Of a DNA stretch of 36,796 bases, positions 11,090-36,796 are shown piece by piece. The DNA lies in assembly GCA_028274765.1 (NCBI GenBank), contig JAQCND010000587.1, positions 1 to 36,796 of the forward strand. Reading direction: 5' to 3'. Made by a program: the position numbers and the translations under genes. A model generated the notes under the pieces. That model saw only the letters and a program-made list of their open reading frames with translations. It had not been told where the DNA came from and searched no databases. The DNA comes from Bradymonadaceae bacterium (lineage in GTDB: Bacteria; Myxococcota_A; Bradymonadia; Bradymonadales; Bradymonadaceae). Within the stretch, counting starts at the first letter, position 1. Each line of letters begins with the position of its first letter.

Positions 11090-12121
11090 ATGGTCCATTC
11101 GAGCGATACGCCCAACGATACTCCCTCGCACGTCCTGCTGGTCGGGGGCAGTGGCGATACGGGACGTCGACTCGCCCGAGTCTGGACCGAGCGCGACGTC
11201 TCGGTGGTCGTCACGACACGCCAGTCTCCGGACGAGCTCGACGACGAGGCATTCGCATCGGCCGAGATCCGTCAATGGCAAGGAGCCGGTGAAACGGCGG
11301 CCATGGCGTCCATCGTCGACGCGCTCCGGGGCCAACCCGACGAGACGCTGGTCGTTTACAACCTCGTCGGAGCGTGGCTCCAAAACCCCGAGGAGGCCAT
11401 CTGGGGCGTCGCTCGGACCCTCGCTGACGCGCTGTGTGCGGTCGAGACGGAGGTGCGTCTGGTTCACTGCAGCGCCACATCGGTCTACGGTGATCGTCCC
11501 GGCGAGATCGTCGACGAATCATCGGAACGCTCGCCGGAACTCGAGGTCGGTCGCATTCACGCTCGCGCCGAAGATCGGCTTCTGGAGGCCGAGACGAAGG
11601 GGGTTCGACCCTACGTCCTGCGACTCCCTCACATCTACGGCCCGGGACGCGAGCAGACCGTCGAGTGGATGGCTCAAGGCGAATTCGTCGTCGCCGGCGA
11701 CGGGACCAACCCGATGCACCACATCTACATCGAGGATCTGATCGAGGCGCTGGTCTCGGCGGCGACTGCTCCTCGCCCCGAACCGCCCATCGTCAACGTC
11801 GTCGACGACGTGGCGGCCCCTTACGGCGACTACTGCGACTTCATCGCCGAATCCTGCGGACACGAGCCCCTGGAGCGCGTGGCGCTCGAGGAAGCCAAGG
11901 CGAGCGGCGTCTTCACCGAATGGCTGGGCCCCCACATGGCCGACGACGACGTGCTCGAGGCATTTTACCGATACATGACCTCCAGCGTCGAGATTGACAA
12001 CGAGCGCATGAAGGAGGTCCTCGATCTCGATCTCTCGCATCCCTCCTATCGGGAGGGACTTCGCGATCTACTCGCCCATCGCCACGATCCATCGGATACC
12101 AACTCCGGGAGTCCCCCGTGA
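11090..12121 (+). CDS. Atypical extended SDR / NAD-dependent epimerase-like protein
   Basis: ATG 11090: HVLLVGGSGDTGRRLARVW (dinucleotide-binding motif), VHCSATSVYGDRPGEIVDESS, YVLRLPHIYGPGRE, NPMHHIYIEDLIEAL. Canonical YxxxK position reads ...VGRIHARAEDRLL, so the dyad appears lost. Confidence 0.85.
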   Translation: MVHSSDTPNDTPSHVLLVGGSGDTGRRLARVWTERDVSVVVTTRQSPDELDDEAFASAEIRQWQGAGETAAMASIVDALRGQPDETLVVYNLVGAWLQNPEEAIWGVARTLADALCAVETEVRLVHCSATSVYGDRPGEIVDESSERSPELEVGRIHARAEDRLLEAETKGVRPYVLRLPHIYGPGREQTVEWMAQGEFVVAGDGTNPMHHIYIEDLIEALVSAATAPRPEPPIVNVVDDVAAPYGDYCDFIAESCGHEPLERVALEEAKASGVFTEWLGPHMADDDVLEAFYRYMTSSVEIDNERMKEVLDLDLSHPSYREGLRDLLAHRHDPSDTNSGSPP

Positions 12122-12849
12122 CCTCGACAACCGCTCAACTCGACATGCTCGAAACCCCTCTGCGCGACGCTGGACTCGAGGCCATCGAATTACCCGATTC
12201 GCTGCAACAGCCCGTCCCAGATAACCGAGAAGGGCGTATCGTCAATCGAGCGTACGAGGGCCCCTCGACGCGCCTGGCTCGCCTCACGCGACTGGAACTC
12301 CCCGCATTTCAGGGATTCAATGCCATCGTTTTTCCGAACATCGATCGGCCGGCCCCCTTGCTCGGTATCGATCTCGCGGACGATGGCGGCGACGTGACCA
12401 ACTTCATCGTCGACCTCTGGGGGCTGGAGGCACTCGACGCCAGCGACCGAAGTCCCTGGAAGGAGGCGCGCGCCCCGCTAGACGCATGCTCCGTCGACTG
12501 GACGCCCGGCTCGGTCCTCGAAGGCCCCCGGGCTCGGCTTATCTCCGATGCCGGATTGATGGCCCGAGACGACGGCAGCATCTGCTCGCTCGATGGAGCG
12601 CTTGGGGCCATCGCCGACGCGCTGGATGCCATGGTGAGTCGGCTCGAATCCCTCGACGCTCGGTCGGACTGCGATACGACCGAAGTGCAGGAGACGTTCT
12701 GTCAGTTGCACGCGGCCAAACCAGGGGGGCGAGACATGCTGGTCGATCTGCTCGGCGAGTCACACGCCAATACGTACCTCGAACAGCTCTTCTTTCCAGC
12801 CCCCGATGGACGCCCCCAGTCGGACGGGACGTCGGCGGTGGACGAGTGA
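12118..12849 (+). CDS. Ferredoxin-dependent bilin reductase (FDBR/HY2 family)-like protein
   Basis: GTG start overlapping the upstream stop (GTGA). 243 aa; GRIVNRAYEGPSTRLARLTRLELPAFQGFNAIVFPNIDRPAPLLGIDLADDGGDVTNFIVDL matches the FDBR core pattern (N-x-y-xxP-xxRxxRxxxL...N-x-x-x-FP....P-x-x-G-x-D); C-terminal AAKPGGRDMLVDLLGESHANTYLEQLFFP matches the FDBR tail pattern. Confidence 0.78.
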   Translation: MTSTTAQLDMLETPLRDAGLEAIELPDSLQQPVPDNREGRIVNRAYEGPSTRLARLTRLELPAFQGFNAIVFPNIDRPAPLLGIDLADDGGDVTNFIVDLWGLEALDASDRSPWKEARAPLDACSVDWTPGSVLEGPRARLISDAGLMARDDGSICSLDGALGAIADALDAMVSRLESLDARSDCDTTEVQETFCQLHAAKPGGRDMLVDLLGESHANTYLEQLFFPAPDGRPQSDGTSAVDE

Positions 12850-12992: not shown

Positions 12993-13676
12993 ATGACCAC
13001 ATCCGAATTCCCGGCCCAACTCGATTCCTTACCGTTCTTCGAAGGCAGCGAGTACCCTCAGAGCGCCCGGCAATTGTTGAAGTCGGCCATCGAGCTGTTT
13101 GCTCGCAAGGGATATGCGGCGACGAGCGTCCGCGAGATCGTCGAGGCCGCCGATGTCACCAATCCGATGCTCTATTACTATTTCGACAGCAAAGAGGGCA
13201 TCTTTCTGGAACTGAACTCTTATTTGTTCGAATCGATCACCGAGCGGGTCCGGGAGGCGCTCGAAAGGGCCGAGTCGTTCGAGGAGCGCGTCGAGAGCAT
13301 CGTCCGAGCCCACATGGAGGGGTGTCTCGAGGCCCCCATCGCCCTTCAGTTCTCCTATTTCGTGCTCTTCGGGCCCGAAGACAGCAAGCCAGCTTTCAAC
13401 GTGCTCGAGGCCCGCGAGCCGATGGCCGAGATGGTCCACCGGGTCTTCGCCGAGGCCATCGGATCGGGCGAACTCGAGACCCTCGAAGACGGGACGCCCC
13501 ACGAGATGACCGAGCGGCTCCTCGGCACCATCAACTTCCACATGATGCGAGCGCTCAAGGAAGCCGAGCGCCTCGACGAGCCCCAGTCTCGCATCGAACA
13601 CATGCGAGAACTTCTCGGTCCCGAGAGGCGTCAGCGTTTGGTTCGTTTTTTCCTGCGAGGAATCGGATACCCATGA
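12993..13676 (+). CDS. TetR/AcrR-family transcriptional regulator
   Basis: LLKSAIELFARKGYAATSVREIVEAADVTNPMLYYYFDSKEGIFLEL is a canonical TetR N-terminal HTH; next to an efflux operon. Confidence 0.93.
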   Translation: MTTSEFPAQLDSLPFFEGSEYPQSARQLLKSAIELFARKGYAATSVREIVEAADVTNPMLYYYFDSKEGIFLELNSYLFESITERVREALERAESFEERVESIVRAHMEGCLEAPIALQFSYFVLFGPEDSKPAFNVLEAREPMAEMVHRVFAEAIGSGELETLEDGTPHEMTERLLGTINFHMMRALKEAERLDEPQSRIEHMRELLGPERRQRLVRFFLRGIGYP

Positions 13677-14794
13677 GATGGCGCTACGCGGCGACAATCG
13701 TACTTGCACTACTCGTCGGTCCCCACTGCCAGTCCGGCGCCTCCGAGGCGGGTGCAGCCACTCGTGAGAAAGCTCCCGACGAGGGAGATTCCGGCGGCGT
13801 CGAAGCCATTCCCGTCGAGACGATGAAGGTCTCGACGACGGAGTTTCGCGAGACGTCGACCGTCCCCGGGACGACTTCGCCCGTTGACACGACGAACGTC
13901 TCGGTCGAACAACCCGGCCGCATCGAGCGCCTCACCATCGAAGAAGGCGATGACGTCCAAAAGGGAGAGCGGCTCTTGAAGCTGGAGACCGAAATCGATC
14001 GTGCACGCATCAAACGGCTCGAAAATGCCGTCAAGGCGGCCAAGCGCGAGTTCGAGCGGACTCAAAATCTCCGCGACGACGATCTCGCGACCCCTCGAGA
14101 ACTCGATCGAGCTCGCACCGAACTTCGAGACGCCGAGCTCCAGCTCGAGGAGGCGCAAGTCGGCCTCGACAAGGCGACGGTCCGGAGTCCGACGTCGGGG
14201 GTCATCCTCGACGTCCGCGCCGAAAAGGGAGAACAAGCTGCTCCCGGACGCCCGCTCGCGACGATCGCCGATCTCTCGACGATCGAAGTGACCGCCTCCG
14301 TGCCCGCCTCTCGTATTGGAGTCGTCCAGGAGGGAGACTCGGTCGACGTCGAGATTTCGCCTCTCGGCGAGACCGTCTCAGGAACGATCGCGCGTCGTCC
14401 CCCGGCTGTCGACTCGGATACGCGAACGTATCCTGTCGAGATTCACCTCGACAACGAGGAGGGACGCATCCGGCCCGGCATGCAGGCCTCGATGACGCTG
14501 ACGCGCCAAGTCTGGACCGATGCGGTCGTCATTCCTCGGACGACCGTCCTCCAGGGTTATGAGCGACAGGAGATCGCCGTCGTCCCCCAGACGGAGGACG
14601 ATCAGCCCGAGCAAGCCCTCATTCGCCGCGTTCAGCTCGGCCCGAGCGCGGGCAACCGCGTCGTCGTCACCGAGGGACTCGAAGCCGGCGAACGTCTGGT
14701 CGTTCGAGGGCATCGAAGTCTCATGGAGGAAGCCCCCGTTCAGATCGTCGGGACATACGAGGGCTTACAGGAGGCGCTGGAGGCCGGACTCTAG
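13673..14794 (+). CDS. RND efflux periplasmic adaptor (HlyD/AcrA-type MFP), lipoprotein
   Basis: ATG 13673 overlaps the TetR stop (ATGA); LALLVGPHC lipobox; QPGRIERLTIEEGDDVQKGERLLKLE, ATVRSPTSGVILDVRAEKGEQAAPGRPLATIADLSTIEV, RPGMQASMTL. Confidence 0.93.
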   Translation: MRWRYAATIVLALLVGPHCQSGASEAGAATREKAPDEGDSGGVEAIPVETMKVSTTEFRETSTVPGTTSPVDTTNVSVEQPGRIERLTIEEGDDVQKGERLLKLETEIDRARIKRLENAVKAAKREFERTQNLRDDDLATPRELDRARTELRDAELQLEEAQVGLDKATVRSPTSGVILDVRAEKGEQAAPGRPLATIADLSTIEVTASVPASRIGVVQEGDSVDVEISPLGETVSGTIARRPPAVDSDTRTYPVEIHLDNEEGRIRPGMQASMTLTRQVWTDAVVIPRTTVLQGYERQEIAVVPQTEDDQPEQALIRRVQLGPSAGNRVVVTEGLEAGERLVVRGHRSLMEEAPVQIVGTYEGLQEALEAGL

Positions 14795-14880: not shown

Positions 14881-17800
14881 ATGAAGATCACCAACTTTTC
14901 AATCCATCACGCAACCGCCGTCTTCGTGCTCATCGCCGTCATCGTCATCGGCGGCGTGCGTGCCTACGATTCTTTGCCCAAAGAGGCCTCCCCGGACGTC
15001 CAGATTCCGATCGTCATCGTGCAGACGGCGTACTTCGGCGTCTCGCCGTCGGATATCGAGACGCTGGTGACGCGCCAGCTCGAAGAGGAGCTCGACGGGC
15101 TCCGCAACGTCGACAAGATGACCAGTACCTCGGCGGATAGCGTCTCGCTGATCACGATCGAGTTCGATCCCTCGATCGACATCGACAATGCCCTCCAGAA
15201 AGTTCGCGAGAAGGTCGACAAGGCCGAGGGGGATCTCCCCGACGATGCCGAAGATCCCGAGATCATCGAGATCAACGCCAGCGACTGGCCGGTTTTGATC
15301 GCCAACGTCTCCGGCGAGGCCGATCCCGTTCGTCTGCAGTCGATCGGCGAGGATATCCAGGAGGATATCGAGGGCATTCAGGGGGTGCTTCGTGTCGAAC
15401 TCGCCGGAGGTGTCGACCGCGAAGTGCAGGTGGCCGTCGATCCCGAGGCACTCCGCCACCACAAGGTTTCGCTCGGCCAGATCAATCGGGCGATCCGGGC
15501 CGAAAACATCAATCTCCCGGGCGGAAGTATCGATGTGGGGTCGCAGAAGTTTACGGTACGAGTCCCGGGTGAGTTCGAACGTGTCCAGGCCCTCGAAGAG
15601 ATCGTCGTCAAATCCACCGACGGCCAGGTAGTCATGTTAAAGGACGTTGCCGACGTCCAGTGGGGGTTCGAAGCGCGAGACACTTACAGTCGTCTGACGA
15701 CCTGGACGCGCCACGACGACGGCGAGCTGAAACCGATCAGCAAGCCCAACATCTCACTGTCGGTGGTCAAACGAGCGGGGGAAAACATCTTGCGCATCTC
15801 GCGGGAGGCCAAAGAGGTCCTCGATCAGTATCGAGATCGGTTCGAGAAAGCCGGCGTCGAGATCACGGTGATCAACGACAACTCCGAGATGATCAAAACT
15901 CGAGTCAAGGAACTCGAGAACAACATCATCTCGGGGCTTTTGCTGGTGCTGATCACGCTCTTTTTCTTCATGGGCGGGGCCCGCAACGCCCTCTTCGTGG
16001 CCATCAGTATCCCGACGTCGATGCTGCTCACGTTTCTGGTCCTTCAGATGCTCGGTGTCACCCTCAACATGGTGGTGCTGTTCAGTCTGGTGCTGGCGCT
16101 GGGGATGCTGGTCGACAACGCCATCGTCGTCGTCGAGAACATCTATCGACACGTCAACGAGGGTAAGACCCGAGTGCAGGCGGCCATCGACGGCACGAAA
16201 GAAGTTGGCTGGGCGATCACGGCCTCGACGGCCACGACGGTCGGTGCATTCTTCCCGTTGCTGTTCTGGCCGGGGGTCATGGGGGAGTTCATGGGCTATC
16301 TTCCCATGACGGTCATCATCGTGCTGTTGAGCAGTCTCTTCGTGGCACTCGTGATCAATCCGACCCTCTGCTCGAAGTTCATCAAGCCCAGCGACGACGT
16401 TCAGCTCGACGAAGCCGAAGTGCCCGACAACGCCCTCTATCGCCACTTCCGGACGCTCCTGGAGTGGGCGCTGCACTTGCGATTCGTGGTGCTGCTGGGC
16501 ACGATCGGCATTCTCGTCGGAAGCATCATGCTGTTCGCGGCCAACGACCAGGGGGTCGAGCTATTTCCGGAGACGACCCCGGACAAATTCAACGTTACGA
16601 CCGAATTGCCCGATGGCACCCGGCTGGAGGCGACCGGTGAAGTCGTCGAAGCGCTCGAAAAGCCCCTCGATCAGCGCCCCGAACTGGTCGAAGCCTGGGT
16701 CTCGAACATCGGGACCAAAGGCAGCCGTCAGCAAGGCGGGGGCGAGGCACCGCACTACGGCAACATCTCGGTCGACCTCGTCGAAGTCGAGGACCAGACC
16801 AGCGATCCTGCCACCTTTATTCAGAAACTACGCGACGTCTACGAGGAGATTCCGGGCGCCAACATCTCCGTCAAAAAGGCCTCGATGGGGCCCCCGACGG
16901 GGCCGCCGATCGGCATTGAGATCGTCGGCGAGGATCTAACCACGCTCCAGTCGATTTCCGACCGGGTCAAACGCACACTGCGCACGATTCCGGGTGTGAT
17001 CGATGTCGACGACGATCTCGAACTGACCCGACCCGAGATCCATGTCGACGTCGACCGCAAGCAGGCTGCACTCGCCGGCATCAACACTCGCAAGATCGCA
17101 AGCACCGTCCGCACCGCCATCAGTGGCACCGAGGCGAGCGTCTTTCGCGATGCTGAAGAAGAGTACGACATCACGGTCCAGCTGGACCAGGCCCATCGAC
17201 GAGACATTCAGGACATTCGACAGTTGACGGTGACCGACCGCCGCAACCGTCACATTCCCCTGACTGAACTCGCCGAGGTTCGCGTGCGGGGCGGGAGTGG
17301 GTCGATCCACCACCGCGACCGAGAGCGCGTCGTCACCGTCACGGCCAAAGCGGCCGAGGGGTACCTGGCGGCCGATCGACTCGAGCGCGCCCAGGCCGAA
17401 CTCGCCGATCTGGACGTGCCGACCGGCTACGACATTCGATACACGGGTGAAAACGAAGATCGTCAGGAGGCATCGGACTTTCTGGCGGGCGCCTTGATGG
17501 CCGCGGTCTTCATCATCGCACTCATTCTCGTCACCGAGTTCAACTCCGTCGTCCAGCCGCTCATCATCCTGCTCAGCGTCACGCTGAGTCTCATCGGCGT
17601 CTTCTGGTCGCTCCTGATCACCGGCGAACCCTTCGGCATCATCATGACGGGCATCGGTATCATCAGCCTCGCCGGCGTCGTCGTGAACAACTCCATTGTC
17701 ATGGTGGACTACATCAACGTCCTGCGCGAGCGGGGATACGAACGTCGAGAGGCCGTCATTCGAGGGGGGATGGTTCGTCTACGTCCGGTGGTCTTGACGG

Positions 17801-19503
17801 CCGTGACGACGGCGCTGGGCTTGCTGCCGATCGTCATCGGCGTGAGTCTCGACTTCGTCAACTTCGACATCGTCGTCGGCGGCAACTCCGTCGAACTCTG
17901 GGGGCCGATGTCGCGTGTCGTGGTCGCCGGACTGATGGTCGCGACGGTGCTGACGCTGGTTGTCGTCCCCGTCATGTACTCGATCTTCGATGACATCGGC
18001 GCGATTCCCGGCAAGGTCGCCGACTGGATGTCGTCGTCCGGGGTTGCCCTCCTGGCGGCCGGTCTCGGCGTGGCGCTCGCCGGTTCGCCCACCTCCGTTC
18101 GGGCGCAGGACGACACCTCCAGCTCCGTCTCCGAGGCCTACGCTCGCTCGATGGACGACACCTCGCAGACGACGGACGCGACGTCCGAGGCTTCGAAGGA
18201 CAACACCGACGACTCGGAGAGCGTATCGGTCGACCCCGTCGAGCCCGGCATCGAGGCGGCGCGGACGCTGACGCTCTCGGAGGCTCGCGATCTGGTGCGC
18301 GAGCAAAACTACGACGTCAAACTGGCCGCGACGCGCGTCGATGAGGCCGCCAGCTCCATCCAACAGGCCTACAGCATCCTCTTTCCAAACGTCTCGGCCT
18401 CGGGGTCGTACATCATCCACGATCAGGAGATCACCACCTCGTTTGGGCCCTCCGACGGTGGCGGCGGCCAGCTCCCCGAAGGAGTCGACACCGAAATCCT
18501 CATCCAGCCGAAGACCGAATATCGCTGGAATCTCGCCGCCAACATTCGGCTCATCAACGCCCGAGCCATCCCTCTGATCAAACAGGCCTACAAGCGCAAG
18601 GAGCTGGCGGACAAACAGGTCGAGGTGCTACGGGACGAACTCGATTTCGCGGCCATTCGGCTTTACTACAACCTTCTGACTGTACGCCGGGTCGTCGAAC
18701 TGTCGGCCGAGCAACTCGAGGCCCGCCGTCGCGAACGCCGCACCAACCAGAAGCGCCTGGATCGAGGCGTCATCAATCAGTTCGAGATGACGCGTTCGAA
18801 GCTCCGAGTCGTCCAGGCCGAAAAGGAACTCGAGCGGGCCCGGCTCCAGTTCGAGAAAGTTCGCGAGTCCCTCGCCCAGCTTTTACAGACCGAGGCCGAC
18901 TTCGATCTCGAGCGTCCCGATGCACCAAGAGTTGACCGTTCCCCGAACGAGCTCGTCGAGGTCGCGGCCGATCGACGTCTCGAACTCGAGGCCCGCGAGC
19001 TCGATATCGAGCTCGCCGAGCGACGCATCGACGAGGTCTACACCCAGTATCTCCCCACCATCGGCGCGACCTTTTCGCTCATCGGCACGCGCACGACGGA
19101 CTTCAATCCCGACCCGTTCAAGTGGCAGGCCTCGCTCAACGCTAACTGGACGATCTGGGACGGTGGAGGGCGCGAAGCCATGCTCGATCGACGTCGCGCC
19201 CAGCAAATCGCGAGTGAACTCGAACAAGACAAGAAGCTGAGCGAGATCGAGACCAACCTCCGCAAAGCGTGGAGCGACTACGAATCGGCTCGCTCCCAGG
19301 TCGAATCCGGAGAAAACGAAGTCGAACTCGCCCGCCAAACTCTCGAGGAGACGCGACGCGCTCATCGTCGAGGCGTCGCCACCCAGCTCGACTTGATTCG
19401 AGCCGAAGATCAGGTTCGGAGTGCCGAGATCACCCTCGTGCGCGACCGACTCGAACTTCACCTGGCCGCCCGAAAACTCCAGCATCTGGCCGGATTGAAC
19501 TGA
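14881..19503 (+). CDS. RND efflux permease fused in frame to a TolC-family outer-membrane factor (1540 aa)
   Basis: N-terminal RND: FSIHHATAVFVLIAVIVIGGVRAY, ALGMLVDNAIVVVENIYRHV, GIGIISLAGVVVNNSIVMVDYIN, VVAGLMVATVLTLVVVPVMYSIF. After about 1045 aa an uninterrupted frame continues into TLSEARDLVREQNYDVKLAATRVDEA..., typical of TolC-like OMFs, ending RLELHLAARKLQHLAGLN. Confidence 0.93.
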   Translation: MKITNFSIHHATAVFVLIAVIVIGGVRAYDSLPKEASPDVQIPIVIVQTAYFGVSPSDIETLVTRQLEEELDGLRNVDKMTSTSADSVSLITIEFDPSIDIDNALQKVREKVDKAEGDLPDDAEDPEIIEINASDWPVLIANVSGEADPVRLQSIGEDIQEDIEGIQGVLRVELAGGVDREVQVAVDPEALRHHKVSLGQINRAIRAENINLPGGSIDVGSQKFTVRVPGEFERVQALEEIVVKSTDGQVVMLKDVADVQWGFEARDTYSRLTTWTRHDDGELKPISKPNISLSVVKRAGENILRISREAKEVLDQYRDRFEKAGVEITVINDNSEMIKTRVKELENNIISGLLLVLITLFFFMGGARNALFVAISIPTSMLLTFLVLQMLGVTLNMVVLFSLVLALGMLVDNAIVVVENIYRHVNEGKTRVQAAIDGTKEVGWAITASTATTVGAFFPLLFWPGVMGEFMGYLPMTVIIVLLSSLFVALVINPTLCSKFIKPSDDVQLDEAEVPDNALYRHFRTLLEWALHLRFVVLLGTIGILVGSIMLFAANDQGVELFPETTPDKFNVTTELPDGTRLEATGEVVEALEKPLDQRPELVEAWVSNIGTKGSRQQGGGEAPHYGNISVDLVEVEDQTSDPATFIQKLRDVYEEIPGANISVKKASMGPPTGPPIGIEIVGEDLTTLQSISDRVKRTLRTIPGVIDVDDDLELTRPEIHVDVDRKQAALAGINTRKIASTVRTAISGTEASVFRDAEEEYDITVQLDQAHRRDIQDIRQLTVTDRRNRHIPLTELAEVRVRGGSGSIHHRDRERVVTVTAKAAEGYLAADRLERAQAELADLDVPTGYDIRYTGENEDRQEASDFLAGALMAAVFIIALILVTEFNSVVQPLIILLSVTLSLIGVFWSLLITGEPFGIIMTGIGIISLAGVVVNNSIVMVDYINVLRERGYERREAVIRGGMVRLRPVVLTAVTTALGLLPIVIGVSLDFVNFDIVVGGNSVELWGPMSRVVVAGLMVATVLTLVVVPVMYSIFDDIGAIPGKVADWMSSSGVALLAAGLGVALAGSPTSVRAQDDTSSSVSEAYARSMDDTSQTTDATSEASKDNTDDSESVSVDPVEPGIEAARTLTLSEARDLVREQNYDVKLAATRVDEAASSIQQAYSILFPNVSASGSYIIHDQEITTSFGPSDGGGGQLPEGVDTEILIQPKTEYRWNLAANIRLINARAIPLIKQAYKRKELADKQVEVLRDELDFAAIRLYYNLLTVRRVVELSAEQLEARRRERRTNQKRLDRGVINQFEMTRSKLRVVQAEKELERARLQFEKVRESLAQLLQTEADFDLERPDAPRVDRSPNELVEVAADRRLELEARELDIELAERRIDEVYTQYLPTIGATFSLIGTRTTDFNPDPFKWQASLNANWTIWDGGGREAMLDRRRAQQIASELEQDKKLSEIETNLRKAWSDYESARSQVESGENEVELARQTLEETRRAHRRGVATQLDLIRAEDQVRSAEITLVRDRLELHLAARKLQHLAGLN
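18028..19503 (+). other. OMF (TolC-like) moiety of the fusion, beginning at an in-frame ATG with an internal signal-peptide-like sequence
   Basis: MSSSGVALLAAGLGVALAGSPTSVRA|QDD resembles a signal peptide with a V-R-A cleavage site, followed by a Ser/Thr/Asp-rich linker and the OMF fold; AAGG lies 11 nt upstream of the ATG. Confidence 0.75.
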
Positions 19504-29972: not shown

Positions 29973-32900
29973 TCAATGATCCTCGATCGAGATGCTGAGC
30001 CGCTTGCGAAGCTCGATAAACTCGTCGCTGATGGCAAACAGCAGCAGCTCGTGGACCTGGTCGCGGACTTCGCCCTTGTTGATGGGGCTCTGGCCGTTGC
30101 GGATACACTGGGCTGCCTGATTGAGGTCGCCGCACATCAGGAGTCCGAGGCGATTGGTCGTATGCTCGACGTGGCGTCGCCAGGCGGAGAGATTCGGATT
30201 CTCGCCCGTCTCCAAAAACTCGGAGACGTGCTTCTGGAGTTTCATCTGCCGCTGTGAGGGCATCTCTTGGATCAATCCGGCCCACTCGAGTCCGCTTTCG
30301 CCGAGCTGTTGTTCGAGCACATCCGTGGGGTTGGTAATGTACATCGCCGCCATGAAGAGCATCTTCAACCCTTCGGTCGGCCACTGAATCGAGGCGAGGT
30401 AGTGTTCCGGCCGCATCGCCGACAGCAGCGCGCCGAGCCGGAAAACGAGCTCGCGCTCGTCCTGGTTTTGTACGATGTCGGCGCCCGCCAGGATGGCCGG
30501 CGGATGGGTGTTGGCATTCTGGACACCGAGCGCCTGATCGCGCTTCAGATACACCTCGGGGGCTGGAGCGATGTTGAGCGTATCGACGAGATACTTGTAG
30601 ATGTCTCCGAACATCGAGCCCTGATCGATCTCGAGCTGATCTTGCCGGGGATTGACGCCCCACTTCTTGATGTCTTCGGCGTAATACTCCCGGAGTCCCT
30701 GGTTGAGGATGCGCATGATGGTGGTGATGCGCTGATCTTGCTCCGGATAGTACAATTTGTCGTAGGCGGAGCGATCCAGCGTACCAGTCGTGCGACGGAG
30801 ACTGGGCGACCGGTATTTCTCATACATCTCGCGCTCGCGAGCCGACGCCTGTTCGAGGAAGACCAGCGCCGAAGCGATACACCAGGCGCGGTCGTACTGT
30901 TTGGCGTCCATGTAGGCGTCGAACAGCGCCTTGTAGCTGTCGACTCGAAGCGGGTCCTGCTCGATGAGCGCGCGGTGCTGGGCGACAATGGCATCGACAT
31001 CTCCCCTCTGGTCGTGGAGCTCGGCCAGGAGGAGGCGAACTCGCTCGTCGTCGGGGTTGAGTTGGGCCGCCGTCTCAAAGGCTCGGATCGCGCTCTCGCG
31101 CCAGTTCTGCTCGAAGGTCAGATGCGAGTGGTAGATCTCGCCGAGTCCCTTCCAGAGCTTGAACTTGATCTGGTTTTCGAGCTCGATGCCGCTATCGGCA
31201 ATGCGGTGAAGCATGCGTCGATAGGCGCGCTCGAGCTCCTTCCAGATGCGCTGCTTTTCCTCCTGGCGATCCGTCGAAATCGCCATCTTGCGGTAGATAC
31301 GCTCGATCTCGGGGAAGGCCTCGCCGAGTTTTTCGGTGACGTCGGCGTCGAGCGCCGCCTCGAAGTACTCGATGGCCCGCTTCGGATCCTGGAGCTCGTC
31401 GCGGCAGATGACGGCCGCCACGTAGTTGAAGTGAGCGCGGCGACTCGGGTCCTCCTGCTGTTCGATGAGACGGTCGAGCATGTCGAGCGCATCGTACCAC
31501 TGCTCGGTGTTGCGATAGATCTGGAGCAATTTGCGAAGGACGGAGACGCTGTTGGGACGAATGTCGAGCGCCTCGCGATAGGCGTCGATGGCCCGACTCA
31601 TGTCCCCGATCTCGTCGGCACAGACCTCGCCGATCCGTGTCAGACGGGCAAACTGGAAGGAGGGATCGTCATCGACCTCGCGGAGACGTCGATTGTAATC
31701 GACGACCCGCTCCCAGTGACCTTCGTCGGCGTGGAGATCGACCAGCGATTCCAGGGTCTCCTGGTGGTCGCCGTCGATCTCGAGAGCCTTCTCGTAGTAG
31801 TCGATGGCCGTGATGACGTCGTTGAACTCCTCCCACGTGCGGCCGGCCTTGTAGTAGAGTTCGAGTCGATCATTGGCCTCGAGATCCTCGAGGTGACCGG
31901 CCTCGAGTTCCTCGTAGATGTCGGCCGCCGACTCGTAGTCTTCGACCTCGAACAGAAGCCGCCCCAGTCCGACGAGGACGTCGACGTCGTCTCGATCGAG
32001 ATTGTAAGCGTTCCAGTACTGTTCGAGTGCCGACTCCTGCTGCTCGAGGTCGTCGTACACCTGGCCGAGCTGGACGTAACGACGCTCGAGCTGCTCGTCG
32101 CCGATCTCGTCCGAACGCTCGTAGTGTTCCGTGGCGCGTTCGAGCAGCGGCACCGCCTTCTCCCAGAGATCGTCCTCCAGATAGAGGTCGATCAGCGGTT
32201 CGGCAGCGTCGAGAAGATTGGGATCTTCCTCGAGGGCTTGCTCGTAGTAGTCGAACGCTTGATCGCGAGCCTCGAGTTCCAGCTCATAGATCTCGCCGAT
32301 CTGGGCCAGATACATGGCCTTCTCGGTGAGATCGAGCGTCTCGCCGGCGAATTCGGCGTAGAGATCGACCAGCTCCTGCCATTTGCTGCGCGATTCGTAG
32401 AGGCGTTCGAGGGCGTTGCGGGCGGGCTGGTAGCTGAGATCGACGTCCAGGGCCTGACGATAATACGTCTCGGCGGCGTCTTCGTTGCGAAGCTCGTCCT
32501 CGAAGATTTCGCCGATAGTGGAGTAAATCTCTACGACGTCGTCGGGGTTGTCGAGGCGCTCGGCCAGATCTTCGTAGACCTCGATCGCCTGCTGCCAGTT
32601 GTTGGTCTGGAGGTGCAAGTCGGCCAGGTCGACCAGCACGCCGGGTTGATCGGGGGCCCGCTCGATCGATGCCTCGTAGGCCTCGATGGCAGCGTAGGGC
32701 TCTTCGAGGTGGTTCCACTGCGTACCGCCCAGCTCGTTGTAGAGCTCGACTTTCTTGTCGTCGGAATCGGCGACCTCGATGTGTTGCTGGAGGGTGTCGA
32801 CCTGATCGAACCATGCTTCGAGTTCCCCGTACAGCCGCTCCAGGTTCGCGAGCGCCGTCTCGTTGTCGGGGTCGAGCATCTGGACGTCTTCGTACTCTCC

Positions 32901-35900
32901 GACGGCCGACTCGAGATCGTCGAAATGATCCTCGTAGACGGTGGCTCGCTTGCTGTGGAGTAGAATTTCGTCATCGGGCTCGTGGGTGACCGAGAGCTGT
33001 CCGTCGTAGAGATCGAGCAGATCGTTCCATTCCTCGCGCTCCCGATACAGTCGCTCGAGCGCCTCGAAGGCGTGGCGCGTGTCGCTGTCACGCTCGACCT
33101 CCAGAAGATCGCGATACGCCTGAATAGCACGATCGATGTCGCCGACACGCCGTTCCCAAACGGAGCCGATGCGTCGACGAATCTCGATCTCCTCGTCGCC
33201 GTAACTGGTGTCGGCCTTGCGCTCGAGGATGTCGATCAGATCCTCCCAGCGCTCCTCGCGTTCGTAGATGCTCTCGAGGCTTTCGAGGGCGGGCAGATCG
33301 GTGTCGTCGATCTCGAGGATGCTCCGGTAGGCATCGATCGCCGACTCCAGGTCGTCGAGGCGCAGCTCGTACAACTCTCCGAGGTTGCGCCACAGGTTGA
33401 TCTCGACGTCGACATCGACTGCCAGATCGATCCGCTCCTCGAGGATGTCGGCCAATTCGGGCCACGCCTCGATCTGGCGGTAGAGTTTCTCGAGCGTCTC
33501 GAAGATCTCGACGCGGTCTGGATCGATGTCCAAGGCCCGACGGAGGTGATAGATAGCATCGTCGGGGCGGTCGAGTTCGTCGGCACACCAGTGCCCGACG
33601 CGCTCGTGCAGATCGGCTGCCATCGGGACGTCGCCGAGCTCCCGGATGACGCCCTCGAAGGACTCGATCAGCTCGTCCCAGTGATCGGTGCCGCGGGCGA
33701 GGTCCTCGAGTTCAGCGCGGAGTTGCTCATCGTCGGCAGTCTCGGTGCCGAAGGCCGACTGCAGGATCACGAACGCCCGGTCTGGCTGGTCGAGTTCGTC
33801 GCGGAAAATGCGGGCCGCCGATCGAAGCGTCTCGAGTCGACGATCCGGCTCGTCGCCGTAGATTTCGGCTCGATCGAGGTAGACCTCGACGAGCTTCATG
33901 TACGACGCGTCGTCGTCCTGCTGGAGGTAGATGGTCTCGAGCTCGCGGCTGGCGTCGAGATCGTCGGGATCGAGATCGAGGATCTTCTCGTAGAAGACGG
34001 CGGCCTGCTCGGGTTCGCCGATCCGCTGATCCCAGAGCTCGGCGATGCGATAGAGGACATCGATGCGCTCCTGGTCGGCTTCGAGCTGGTCGGCCTGCAT
34101 CTCCAGAATGTTGGCGGCTTCCTCCCACTGGCCCTCCTGGAGGTACAGCTCCTCGAGTTGATCGAGAGCGTCTTGGTGTTCGGGTTCGATCGAGAGGACT
34201 TCGCGCCAGGCGTCGATCGCCGCCTCGGGATCGAACAACTGCTCGCTCCGGATCTCGGCCAGCTCGACCCACAGCTCGAAGGTCTCGTCGTCGCCGACGG
34301 CGTCGTGTTCGATCAGTCGTTCGAGAATGTCGGCCAGTTCCGGATATTCGGCCTCCTGGCGATAGAGTTCACGGAGTTCGTGGAGCGCCTCCAGGTGGTT
34401 GGGATCGAGGGTGAGGACGTCCTCCCAGGCTTCGATGGCAGGGCCGACGGCCTGGAGACGTTCGCTCCAGACAATACCGAGAGAGCTGTGAATGTCGATC
34501 TGTTCATCGAGGTTGTCGGTCAGCTCCAACTCGCGCTCGAGAATATCGACCAGATCTTCCCAGCGCTCTTCTTCGGCATAGAGGTACTCGAGATCTGCGA
34601 TCGCCTCGGTGTGATCGGGCTGGAGATTCAGGACGTCGCGCCATCGTTCGATCGCCTCGAGAGGACGATCGAGCATCTCTTCGTCCTCGGCCAGGCGCGC
34701 CATCTGGGCGCACTTGTCGATTTCGATCTCCGGATCGGTCGCCGACTCGGCTTGGCGCTCGAGGATGTCGTACAGCTCCTCCCAGTTCTCGCCGCGTCGA
34801 TAGAGGGTCTCGAGTTCGACCAGTGCGTCTTCGTGACGGGGGCGGATGTCCAGAAGATCGCGATACGTCTCGATCGCGCTCTGCGGCTCGTCGAGTTCGT
34901 ACTGGTAGATCTGGCCGAGTCGGAACTCGAGTTCCGTGATGACCTCTTCATCGTACGTGTGGTCGAGTCGCTGGATGAGAATCTCGGCCAGTTCACTCCA
35001 GCGTCTCTCTTCGTAGTAGACGCGATCGAGCGCTTCGAGCGCCTCGAGATGACCGGGTTCGAGCTCGAGTACCTGCTGGTAGGCCATTTCGGCGTCGCGC
35101 TCCTGGCCGAGCTCGTAATCGAGCACGCGGGCCAGACGAATCCAGAGTCGAATCGCCGCCTCGTCATCGAGGGCATCGGTCTCGAGAGCTTCGTAGTAGT
35201 AGCCGGCCGCTTTCTTCCATTGTTCGGTCTGTTCGGCGAGTTCGTCGACGCGTTCGACGGCCTCCTCGAAGTTGGGCTTTTCGACGAGAGCCTCCCCGTG
35301 GGCCTCGAGCGCGCTCTCGGGATCGTCGAGTTCCGTCAGATAGAGCTCGCCGATCTCTTCGAGGAGTTCGAATCGATCCAGCGGGTCTTCGAGACGCTCG
35401 ATACGTCGCTCGTAGAGATGGACGATCGCATCGTACTGGTCGCGCTCCCGATAGTAGGGCTCGAGGATGCCCAGAATGCGATCCGGGCGCCGGCCGGCCG
35501 TGAACATCTCCTCGAGCAGATCGATCGAGACGGCGTGTTCGGGTTCGTTGTCGAGAATGCGCTGAATCGTGTCGATGGCCTCGTCCGGACGGTCGAGCTC
35601 CTCTTTGTAGAGCAGCGCCAGACGACTCCGGAGGTTGCGGAGTTCCTCGGGGTCGTCGACGAGTCGGATGCGCGTCTGCAGCACGTCGGCGAGACGTTCC
35701 CACTCGCCGGCCTGCTGATAGAGGGGATCGATGGCGGCGTTGACCTCGGGATGCTCCGGATCTGCCTCGAGGGCGAGTTCGTAGCGATCGATCGCGCCGT
35801 AGAGGTCGTCGAGTGGGCCATCGAGGATCTGACCAATACGTCGATTCAGATCCGTGACGACCTCGAAGTCGCTCTCATCCTCGAGCTGGACGTCGAGCCA

Positions 35901-36796
35901 CTCGATGAAGACCTCCCACTCGCCGAGCTGTTCGGCGAGTCGCTCGGCGGTATCGAGCATATCCGAGCGAGACGGATCGACGGCGACGGCGTCGAGGTAT
36001 GCCTCGAAGGCCTCGACCTCGAGGTCGAGCTGCTCCTCGTAGATCTCGCCGATCTCTCGGTACAGCCCGATCTTGCGTTCGGGTTCGGGATCGGTCTCGA
36101 TGAGGCGCTCTTTGACGTCGATGAGCGCCCTCCATTCGCCGGCTTTTTCGTAGATCGGTTGGAGGACGTCGGCGGCCTCGAATGCCGCCTCTTGCCGATC
36201 GATCAGGTCTTCGAGGGCCCGGAGAGTGGACTCGTGTCCGGGGTTTTCGTCGAGGATCTCACGATAGACCTCGACGGCTTGATGGACGTCCCTGAGTTCG
36301 CCCTCCCAGAGTTGACCGATTTCGTGGTGGAGTTGCTGACGCTCTTCATCGATCGAGGCCAGATCTCGCTGGCGCTCGAGCATCTCGAGCAATTCGTGCC
36401 ACTGTTTCGTTTCTTCGTAGAGATCGGCGAGGTTTTCGAGGGCCTCGAGCTCCTCGTCGTCGAGGTCGAGCAGGTCGTGGTAGGTCTCAATCGCCTCGTA
36501 GGGACGCTCAAGCTGGTCTTCGTAGATGGGCGCGATGGCATAGAGAAGATCTTTGCGCGCCTCGTTGCTGTCGACCAGATCGAGTTTGCGCTCGTAGATC
36601 TCGAGCAGCTCCTCCCACTCTTCGAGATCTCGGTAGAGGGCTTCGAGCTGACCGATCGCCTGCCGGTCCTCCTCGTCGATCTGGAGCACCTCGCGGTAGA
36701 CCTCGATGGCGTCTCGAGGTTGCTCGAGGGCGTCGTCGTAAAGCTGGCCGGCTTGGTAGAGGAGATTCTTGCGGGTCTCGGTCTCGTCGGTGTGGT
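29973..36796 (-). CDS. Giant TPR-repeat protein, 5' end beyond the window (more than 2270 aa)
   Basis: Many imperfect units like DDPESAIEAYRDLLDLDPDHEEALEALERLYRREERWEELVDILERQ. The frame is open through the right edge (HTDETETRKNLLYQAGQLYDDALEQPRDAIEVYREVLQIDEED), so the listed start at 36689 is internal. Confidence 0.92.
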   Translation of the reverse strand, partial: HTDETETRKNLLYQAGQLYDDALEQPRDAIEVYREVLQIDEEDRQAIGQLEALYRDLEEWEELLEIYERKLDLVDSNEARKDLLYAIAPIYEDQLERPYEAIETYHDLLDLDDEELEALENLADLYEETKQWHELLEMLERQRDLASIDEERQQLHHEIGQLWEGELRDVHQAVEVYREILDENPGHESTLRALEDLIDRQEAAFEAADVLQPIYEKAGEWRALIDVKERLIETDPEPERKIGLYREIGEIYEEQLDLEVEAFEAYLDAVAVDPSRSDMLDTAERLAEQLGEWEVFIEWLDVQLEDESDFEVVTDLNRRIGQILDGPLDDLYGAIDRYELALEADPEHPEVNAAIDPLYQQAGEWERLADVLQTRIRLVDDPEELRNLRSRLALLYKEELDRPDEAIDTIQRILDNEPEHAVSIDLLEEMFTAGRRPDRILGILEPYYRERDQYDAIVHLYERRIERLEDPLDRFELLEEIGELYLTELDDPESALEAHGEALVEKPNFEEAVERVDELAEQTEQWKKAAGYYYEALETDALDDEAAIRLWIRLARVLDYELGQERDAEMAYQQVLELEPGHLEALEALDRVYYEERRWSELAEILIQRLDHTYDEEVITELEFRLGQIYQYELDEPQSAIETYRDLLDIRPRHEDALVELETLYRRGENWEELYDILERQAESATDPEIEIDKCAQMARLAEDEEMLDRPLEAIERWRDVLNLQPDHTEAIADLEYLYAEEERWEDLVDILERELELTDNLDEQIDIHSSLGIVWSERLQAVGPAIEAWEDVLTLDPNHLEALHELRELYRQEAEYPELADILERLIEHDAVGDDETFELWVELAEIRSEQLFDPEAAIDAWREVLSIEPEHQDALDQLEELYLQEGQWEEAANILEMQADQLEADQERIDVLYRIAELWDQRIGEPEQAAVFYEKILDLDPDDLDASRELETIYLQQDDDASYMKLVEVYLDRAEIYGDEPDRRLETLRSAARIFRDELDQPDRAFVILQSAFGTETADDEQLRAELEDLARGTDHWDELIESFEGVIRELGDVPMAADLHERVGHWCADELDRPDDAIYHLRRALDIDPDRVEIFETLEKLYRQIEAWPELADILEERIDLAVDVDVEINLWRNLGELYELRLDDLESAIDAYRSILEIDDTDLPALESLESIYEREERWEDLIDILERKADTSYGDEEIEIRRRIGSVWERRVGDIDRAIQAYRDLLEVERDSDTRHAFEALERLYREREEWNDLLDLYDGQLSVTHEPDDEILLHSKRATVYEDHFDDLESAVGEYEDVQMLDPDNETALANLERLYGELEAWFDQVDTLQQHIEVADSDDKKVELYNELGGTQWNHLEEPYAAIEAYEASIERAPDQPGVLVDLADLHLQTNNWQQAIEVYEDLAERLDNPDDVVEIYSTIGEIFEDELRNEDAAETYYRQALDVDLSYQPARNALERLYESRSKWQELVDLYAEFAGETLDLTEKAMYLAQIGEIYELELEARDQAFDYYEQALEEDPNLLDAAEPLIDLYLEDDLWEKAVPLLERATEHYERSDEIGDEQLERRYVQLGQVYDDLEQQESALEQYWNAYNLDRDDVDVLVGLGRLLFEVEDYESAADIYEELEAGHLEDLEANDRLELYYKAGRTWEEFNDVITAIDYYEKALEIDGDHQETLESLVDLHADEGHWERVVDYNRRLREVDDDPSFQFARLTRIGEVCADEIGDMSRAIDAYREALDIRPNSVSVLRKLLQIYRNTEQWYDALDMLDRLIEQQEDPSRRAHFNYVAAVICRDELQDPKRAIEYFEAALDADVTEKLGEAFPEIERIYRKMAISTDRQEEKQRIWKELERAYRRMLHRIADSGIELENQIKFKLWKGLGEIYHSHLTFEQNWRESAIRAFETAAQLNPDDERVRLLLAELHDQRGDVDAIVAQHRALIEQDPLRVDSYKALFDAYMDAKQYDRAWCIASALVFLEQASAREREMYEKYRSPSLRRTTGTLDRSAYDKLYYPEQDQRITTIMRILNQGLREYYAEDIKKWGVNPRQDQLEIDQGSMFGDIYKYLVDTLNIAPAPEVYLKRDQALGVQNANTHPPAILAGADIVQNQDERELVFRLGALLSAMRPEHYLASIQWPTEGLKMLFMAAMYITNPTDVLEQQLGESGLEWAGLIQEMPSQRQMKLQKHVSEFLETGENPNLSAWRRHVEHTTNRLGLLMCGDLNQAAQCIRNGQSPINKGEVRDQVHELLLFAISDEFIELRKRLSISIEDH
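31000..36796 (-). repeat. TPR-like tandem array with bipartite period of about 75 aa
   Basis: Recurring pairs: (GELYEEELDDPESAIEAYRDxLxLDPxHxEALExLExLY) followed by (ExxxWEELxDILERxxExxxDxxExxELxxRIG). Confidence 0.85.

Follow-up and report, generated by a model that had tools for sequence, protein, structure and literature searches.

The window, i.e., the whole stretch of 36,796 nucleotides analysed here, carries on its forward strand an operon in which a TetR-family regulator gene and an adaptor gene precede one long frame (Table 1). This frame (14881-19503, +) is a single, stop-free run of 1540 codons. The initial annotation described it as one 1540-aa ORF joining an RND permease to a TolC-like outer-membrane factor (OMF), and its coordinates, length, and junction sequence all hold.

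Table 1. Features of the operon and of the fused gene
Feature	Position	Strand	Basis
TetR-family regulator, first operon gene	12993..13676	+	PF00440 E 7.8e-18
Periplasmic adaptor (MFP), ~373 aa	13673..14794	+	HlyD_D23 E 1.1e-28; RND_mfp TIGR01730 204.5 bits, cut-off 94.9
RND permease domain, residues 1-1035	14881..17985	+	ACR_tran; nearest solved chains MexK, MdtB
Short cytoplasmic tail / predicted signal n-region, residues 1036-1048	17986..18024	+	position after last RND helix; basic in most orthologues
Predicted internal signal peptide	18025..18105	+	core 1049-1067, Pro1070, V-R-A at 1073-1075
Ser/Thr/Asp-rich linker, residues 1076-1127	18106..18261	+	predicted disordered, mostly pLDDT 29-39
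OMF (TolC-like) domain, residues 1128-1540, and stop codon	18262..19503	+	OEP; Foldseek to TolC, OprM, CusC

Residues 3-1036 match ACR_tran (PF00873) at 721.5 bits (E 2e-216, gathering cut-off 28), which identifies a full-length RND permease. The C-terminal part matches OEP (PF02321) at 162.6 bits (E 1.2e-47, cut-off 22) and, with its TolC fold, belongs to the OMF/TolC family. In an AlphaFold2 model of residues 864-1540, this part forms a complete OMF, made of two repeats of a helix, two strands, and a 66-67-residue helix; pLDDT is mostly 85-96 over the OMF, which a disordered linker precedes, and is low at the junction. In Foldseek, the best PDB hits of the OMF model are to TolC and related proteins, OprM, and CusC (E 1e-14 to 5e-19), with TM-scores to target of 0.66-0.79 for TolC, OprM, and TOprJ1. 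Pfam, AlphaFold2, and Foldseek agree with the earlier reading of a frame that runs uninterrupted from the last RND helix into a complete OMF.

The permease lies under every NCBIfam subfamily cut-off: it reaches 433.8 bits against 701 for the CusA/CzcA heavy-metal subfamily (TIGR00914), and at best 633 bits against 1250 for the HAE-1 multidrug subfamily (RND_permease_2 and others). Its nearest solved chains, MexK and MdtB, are HAE-type multidrug pumps, and it resembles the HAE type, a likeness that falls short of a subfamily assignment. The proton-relay residues of AcrB are, on the numbering that we assume, D407, D408, and K940. In the window permease, D412 is kept, N413 replaces the second Asp, and N936/N937 lie near the position of the Lys, all of them invariant among 17 orthologues. 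If this numbering is right, Asn appears to stand in 17/17 orthologues in place of both the second Asp of TM4 and the Lys of TM10 in AcrB.

The stop of the TetR gene and the start of the adaptor gene overlap as ATGA. The adaptor start was read from the sequence at 13673, the program-listed ORF start (13322) being too early, and the N-terminal ..LALLVGPHC indicates that the adaptor is probably a lipoprotein. Elsewhere in the window, positions 12118-12849 (+) encode a ferredoxin-dependent bilin reductase-like protein (PF05996, E 5.8e-10) adjoining an epimerase gene, and positions 29973-36689 (-) hold a 2238-aa ORF made largely of TPR repeats.

A signal-like segment at the junction

The junction of the window reads MSSSGVALLAAGLGVALAGSPTSVRA|QDD, or over a longer stretch ...VVPVMYSIFDDIGAIPGKVADWMSSSGVALLAAGLGVALAGSPTSVRA|QDD..., where the bar marks the predicted cut between A1075 and Q1076 (18105/18106); M1050 lies at 18028. 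A hydrophobic signal-like segment is found at every fused junction. After the last RND helix, the fused proteins show the same order, i.e., a mostly basic stretch, a hydrophobic core, a proline, small-x-Ala, and then Gln/Glu/Asp. The predicted cleavage sites include AQA|QE, TSA|QE, ANA|QD, LQA|QE, and ASA|QE, as well as SVRA|QDD in the window, where the n-region has one Lys only and the hydrophobic core is modest.

The initial annotation had taken this segment for a signal peptide with a V-R-A site, followed by a Ser/Thr/Asp linker. We defined a strict cleavage motif, [AVSTGLI]xA|[QED], and used the RND helices of the same proteins as control. The signal anatomy with this motif is present in 17 of the 21 fused proteins versus 10 of the 219 control helices (Fisher p 9e-16, a value that overstates certainty and is only a guide, since the rows are related); the four family junctions that miss the strict motif are those of G003, G020, G010, and G019. 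Proline 1070 is the only invariant junction column among 17 aligned orthologues. The position and character of the predicted signal and of the cleavage motif are kept family-wide while the surrounding sequence drifts, and the segment that follows the site is indeed the linker that had been described. By its n-region, h-region, and small-x-Ala, the junction has the anatomy of a signal peptide and is a predicted signal peptidase I substrate.

From the sequence, the likely product of the gene is, as the initial annotation had proposed, an RND-OMF polyprotein whose internal signal peptide is cut by signal peptidase I, and we infer export, cleavage, stoichiometric output, and pump function as follows. 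During translation, the RND part would enter the inner membrane and leave its C-terminus on the cytoplasmic side. The hydrophobic segment that comes after it would then act as the internal signal peptide, a 13th helix with N-in/C-out orientation, and send the OMF through Sec. After cleavage behind A1075 by signal peptidase I, the freed OMF would go to the outer membrane and the signal would stay on the permease as one more helix; each half would form trimers and assemble with the adaptor of the preceding gene (13673-14794). A single translation would, in this way, yield permease and channel at 3:3, as in a tripartite pump, matching the published 3:6:3 assembly (PMC4754349).

Linker length, internal starts, and the case for cleavage

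Between the cut site and the first conserved segment of the OMF, the linker counts 52 residues in the window and 4-69 in 17 aligned orthologues. Short linkers are found in G022 (4 residues), G024 (24), and G001 (25); 26 residues also occur among fused relatives, and the linker of L097 has zero or close to zero. The two membranes are 23 nm apart and the periplasmic part of the OMF is 10 nm long (PMC4754349), with an equatorial domain at mid alpha-barrel (PMC8277102). By this published geometry, the inner membrane and the OMF N-terminus would be at least ~18 nm apart. With 0-26 residues, a chain spans ~9 nm at most, while ~18-23 nm are needed from the inner membrane to the OMF equator or the outer membrane. 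In short-linker relatives, the uncut protein therefore could not form a normal tripartite pump. The 52-residue linker of the window, which reaches 18.7 nm when fully stretched, is borderline, so that the case for cutting there rests on the conserved motif.

These lengths bear directly on the possibility that the protein stays uncut, the junction being a permanent 13th helix and the linker a periplasmic tether between permease and OMF. The stretched reach of the window linker would allow it, as would relatives with up to 69 residues, and the strict motif is missing from four junctions. However, fused relatives have linkers of 0, 4, 24, 25, and 26 residues, most Cytophagales fusions have very short ones, and both the cleavage motif and the helix-breaking Pro are conserved, neither of which a tether requires. 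We judge such a tether improbable.

Internal initiation, at the ATG in position 18028, could also yield the OMF as a protein of its own with a signal peptide, beside some read-through fusion. In the window, this ATG is in frame, stands just before the hydrophobic core, and is preceded by a weak AAGG-like element. However, it is not conserved among orthologues, several of which (e.g., G020 and G007) lack a usable start directly ahead of the core; most of the possible starts have no Shine-Dalgarno, and the fused product would remain in any case. No conserved internal start with a Shine-Dalgarno was found in the orthologues, where ATG, GTG, or TTG codons before the core are scattered and, in some, absent. 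For want of conservation, we rule out internal initiation as a general mechanism and regard it as unlikely in the window. This scatter makes it most likely that one polypeptide is made, in which the old signal peptide of the OMF is kept as an internal signal.

It is also very unlikely that some copies in this family, whose linkers often have 50-70 residues, stay uncut as one polypeptide anchored in both membranes, perhaps with regulated cleavage. If this were true, these copies would be pumps whose channel is physically tethered to the permease.

Conservation and repeated occurrence of the fusion

In all 18 carrier genomes, out of 21 family genomes, the fused gene is a single open frame, and no orthologue was found in the other three (G002, G008, and G013). 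Where one match spans the whole frame, the orthologues are 52-69% identical to the window. The single-contig assemblies G005 and G011 also carry the intact fused frame; the orthologue of G019 is cut by the contig end, yet spans both domains; and those of G010 and G007 match as two pieces inside one frame. One carrier is named, 'Myxococcales bacterium CSSed162cmA_402' (L060). In nine pairs, purifying selection acts on both the RND and the OMF domain (dN/dS 0.04-0.39), and dN/dS across the junction is below 1 in all nine (0.16-0.94), the highest value, 0.94 between the window and its genus mate G001, indicating little constraint there.

The initial annotation had named a sequencing error removing a stop or a frameshift as a possible refutation; since the frame is intact in all 18 carrier genomes, such an error is excluded. 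An artefact of assembly or sequencing, or a degenerate fusion pseudogene, has practically no chance of being the explanation: the window does come from a fragmented assembly of 667 contigs, but the same frame in 18 genomes, two of them single-contig, rules out an artefact origin, and the dN/dS of both domains speaks against a pseudogene.

Homologues spanning both domains, which the initial annotation had suggested seeking, are thus found in all 18 family carriers, and they also occur in relatives outside the family. Close relatives with two ORFs, which it had named as a second possible refutation, are absent inside the family and exist only outside (G021, G023, G031, G033, G035, and G051). These have the same adaptor-RND-OMF order, often with TetR in front. 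In G023, the RND stop and the OMF start overlap as ATGA, and the separate OMFs of G021, G023, G031, G033, and G051 start with ordinary signal peptides. Both states are met in the sister family f2, where G022 and G024 are fused, and G021 and G023 separate; in G025, of the same family, the RND ends with a stop and the contig ends soon after. The RND tree requires no fewer than four switches between the fused and the separate state. The fusion of G022, which has ...EQSSKLG directly before its signal peptide, looks independent, with the old RND tail (QSSKLG motif) kept, since this tail is shared with the unfused RND ends of G021 (...MQSSKLL) and G025 (...AQSSKLGGVEEA).

A further fused lineage is L097, an uncultured proteobacterial bin. 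In the class to which the window belongs, a second RND group, ~30% identical to that of the window, likewise continues in frame into an OMF (L203 1545-6029; L204, L205, L206, and L208); its junctions show a clear internal signal (ASA|E, ATA|Q) and its linkers are mostly very short. A fusion unique to the window is ruled out by G022, G024, L097, this second group, and the CusA/CzcA proteins of Cytophagales described below. When the whole protein was searched against plasmids, no record matched over most of its length.

Two other RND relatives have their own peculiarities. The unfused one of L042 (3935-7564, G027) ends in a ~140-residue Pro/Ser/Thr/Asp-rich C-terminal tail, and no OMF was found in the 11-kb stretch around it. 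That of L045 (3613-6809, G031) extends over two frames with an in-frame TAG, possibly through a frameshift or as a pseudogene.

Comparison with known systems

The view that pump and channel are normally separate genes has to be qualified, as CusA/CzcA-type RND-OMF fusions are frequent in Bacteroidota. Among 39 genomes sampled from the order of Flammeovirga (G057), frames of 1440-1500 aa hold many of the CusA/CzcA RNDs. A hydrophobic core and a cleavage motif stand at the junction in 17 of the 21 Cytophagales fusions inspected, the linker usually being very short, and one of these fusions is, by Pfam, an RND end followed by OEP. At NCBI, each such protein carries a single name, 'CusA/CzcA family heavy metal efflux RND transporter'; WP_264563277.1 (1452 aa, Flavobacterium plasmid NZ_CP092371.1) is an example. 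Like the window gene, they have ACR_tran and OEP in one frame, an adjacent adaptor gene, and, in most of those inspected, a junction signal. They differ by belonging to the heavy-metal subfamily (over the TIGR00914 cut-off of 701, the window lying below at 434) and to another lineage, by separate fusion events, and by their very short linkers. The RND-OMF fusion is, therefore, an already known database architecture (Bacteroidota HME type), of which the window holds an HAE-like version in a different lineage and of separate origin.

One of the 21 proteins inspected, L200 (G082:C10:331049-334135), joins a CusA/CzcA RND to a CusB-like adaptor instead of an OMF. With the lipobox LLSSA|C at the end of its internal signal, it looks like the same design adapted to signal peptidase II, which would release a lipoprotein adaptor. 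Efflux pumps from more than one subfamily and phylum repeatedly show this solution, in one case with an adaptor and a lipoprotein signal.

To our knowledge, bacterial polyproteins matured by signal peptidase have rarely been described. The FbcH cytochrome b/c1 precursor of Bradyrhizobium is one: a polytopic protein is followed in frame by an exported protein, and the internal signal is cut by signal peptidase. Unlike the RND-OMF fusion, it belongs to a respiratory complex and its exported half stays in the inner membrane. Our literature search returned nothing on point for this precedent or for internal signal peptides in polyproteins, and no description of a natural RND-OMF fusion or of its internal signal, which, its coverage being incomplete, is weak evidence of absence.

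If cleavage is confirmed, annotation has counted two proteins as one ('RND transporter'). In E. coli, one TolC is shared among many pumps; the fused genes would offer a natural system for asking why a fixed permease-to-channel synthesis is favored despite such sharing. The HAE-1 tripartite pumps (AcrAB-TolC, MexAB-OprM, MdtABC, and MexJK) resemble the window operon in that permease, adaptor, and OMF are encoded together, in the order TetR-adaptor-permease-OMF, but there permease and OMF each have a gene, and the OMF starts with an N-terminal signal of its own.
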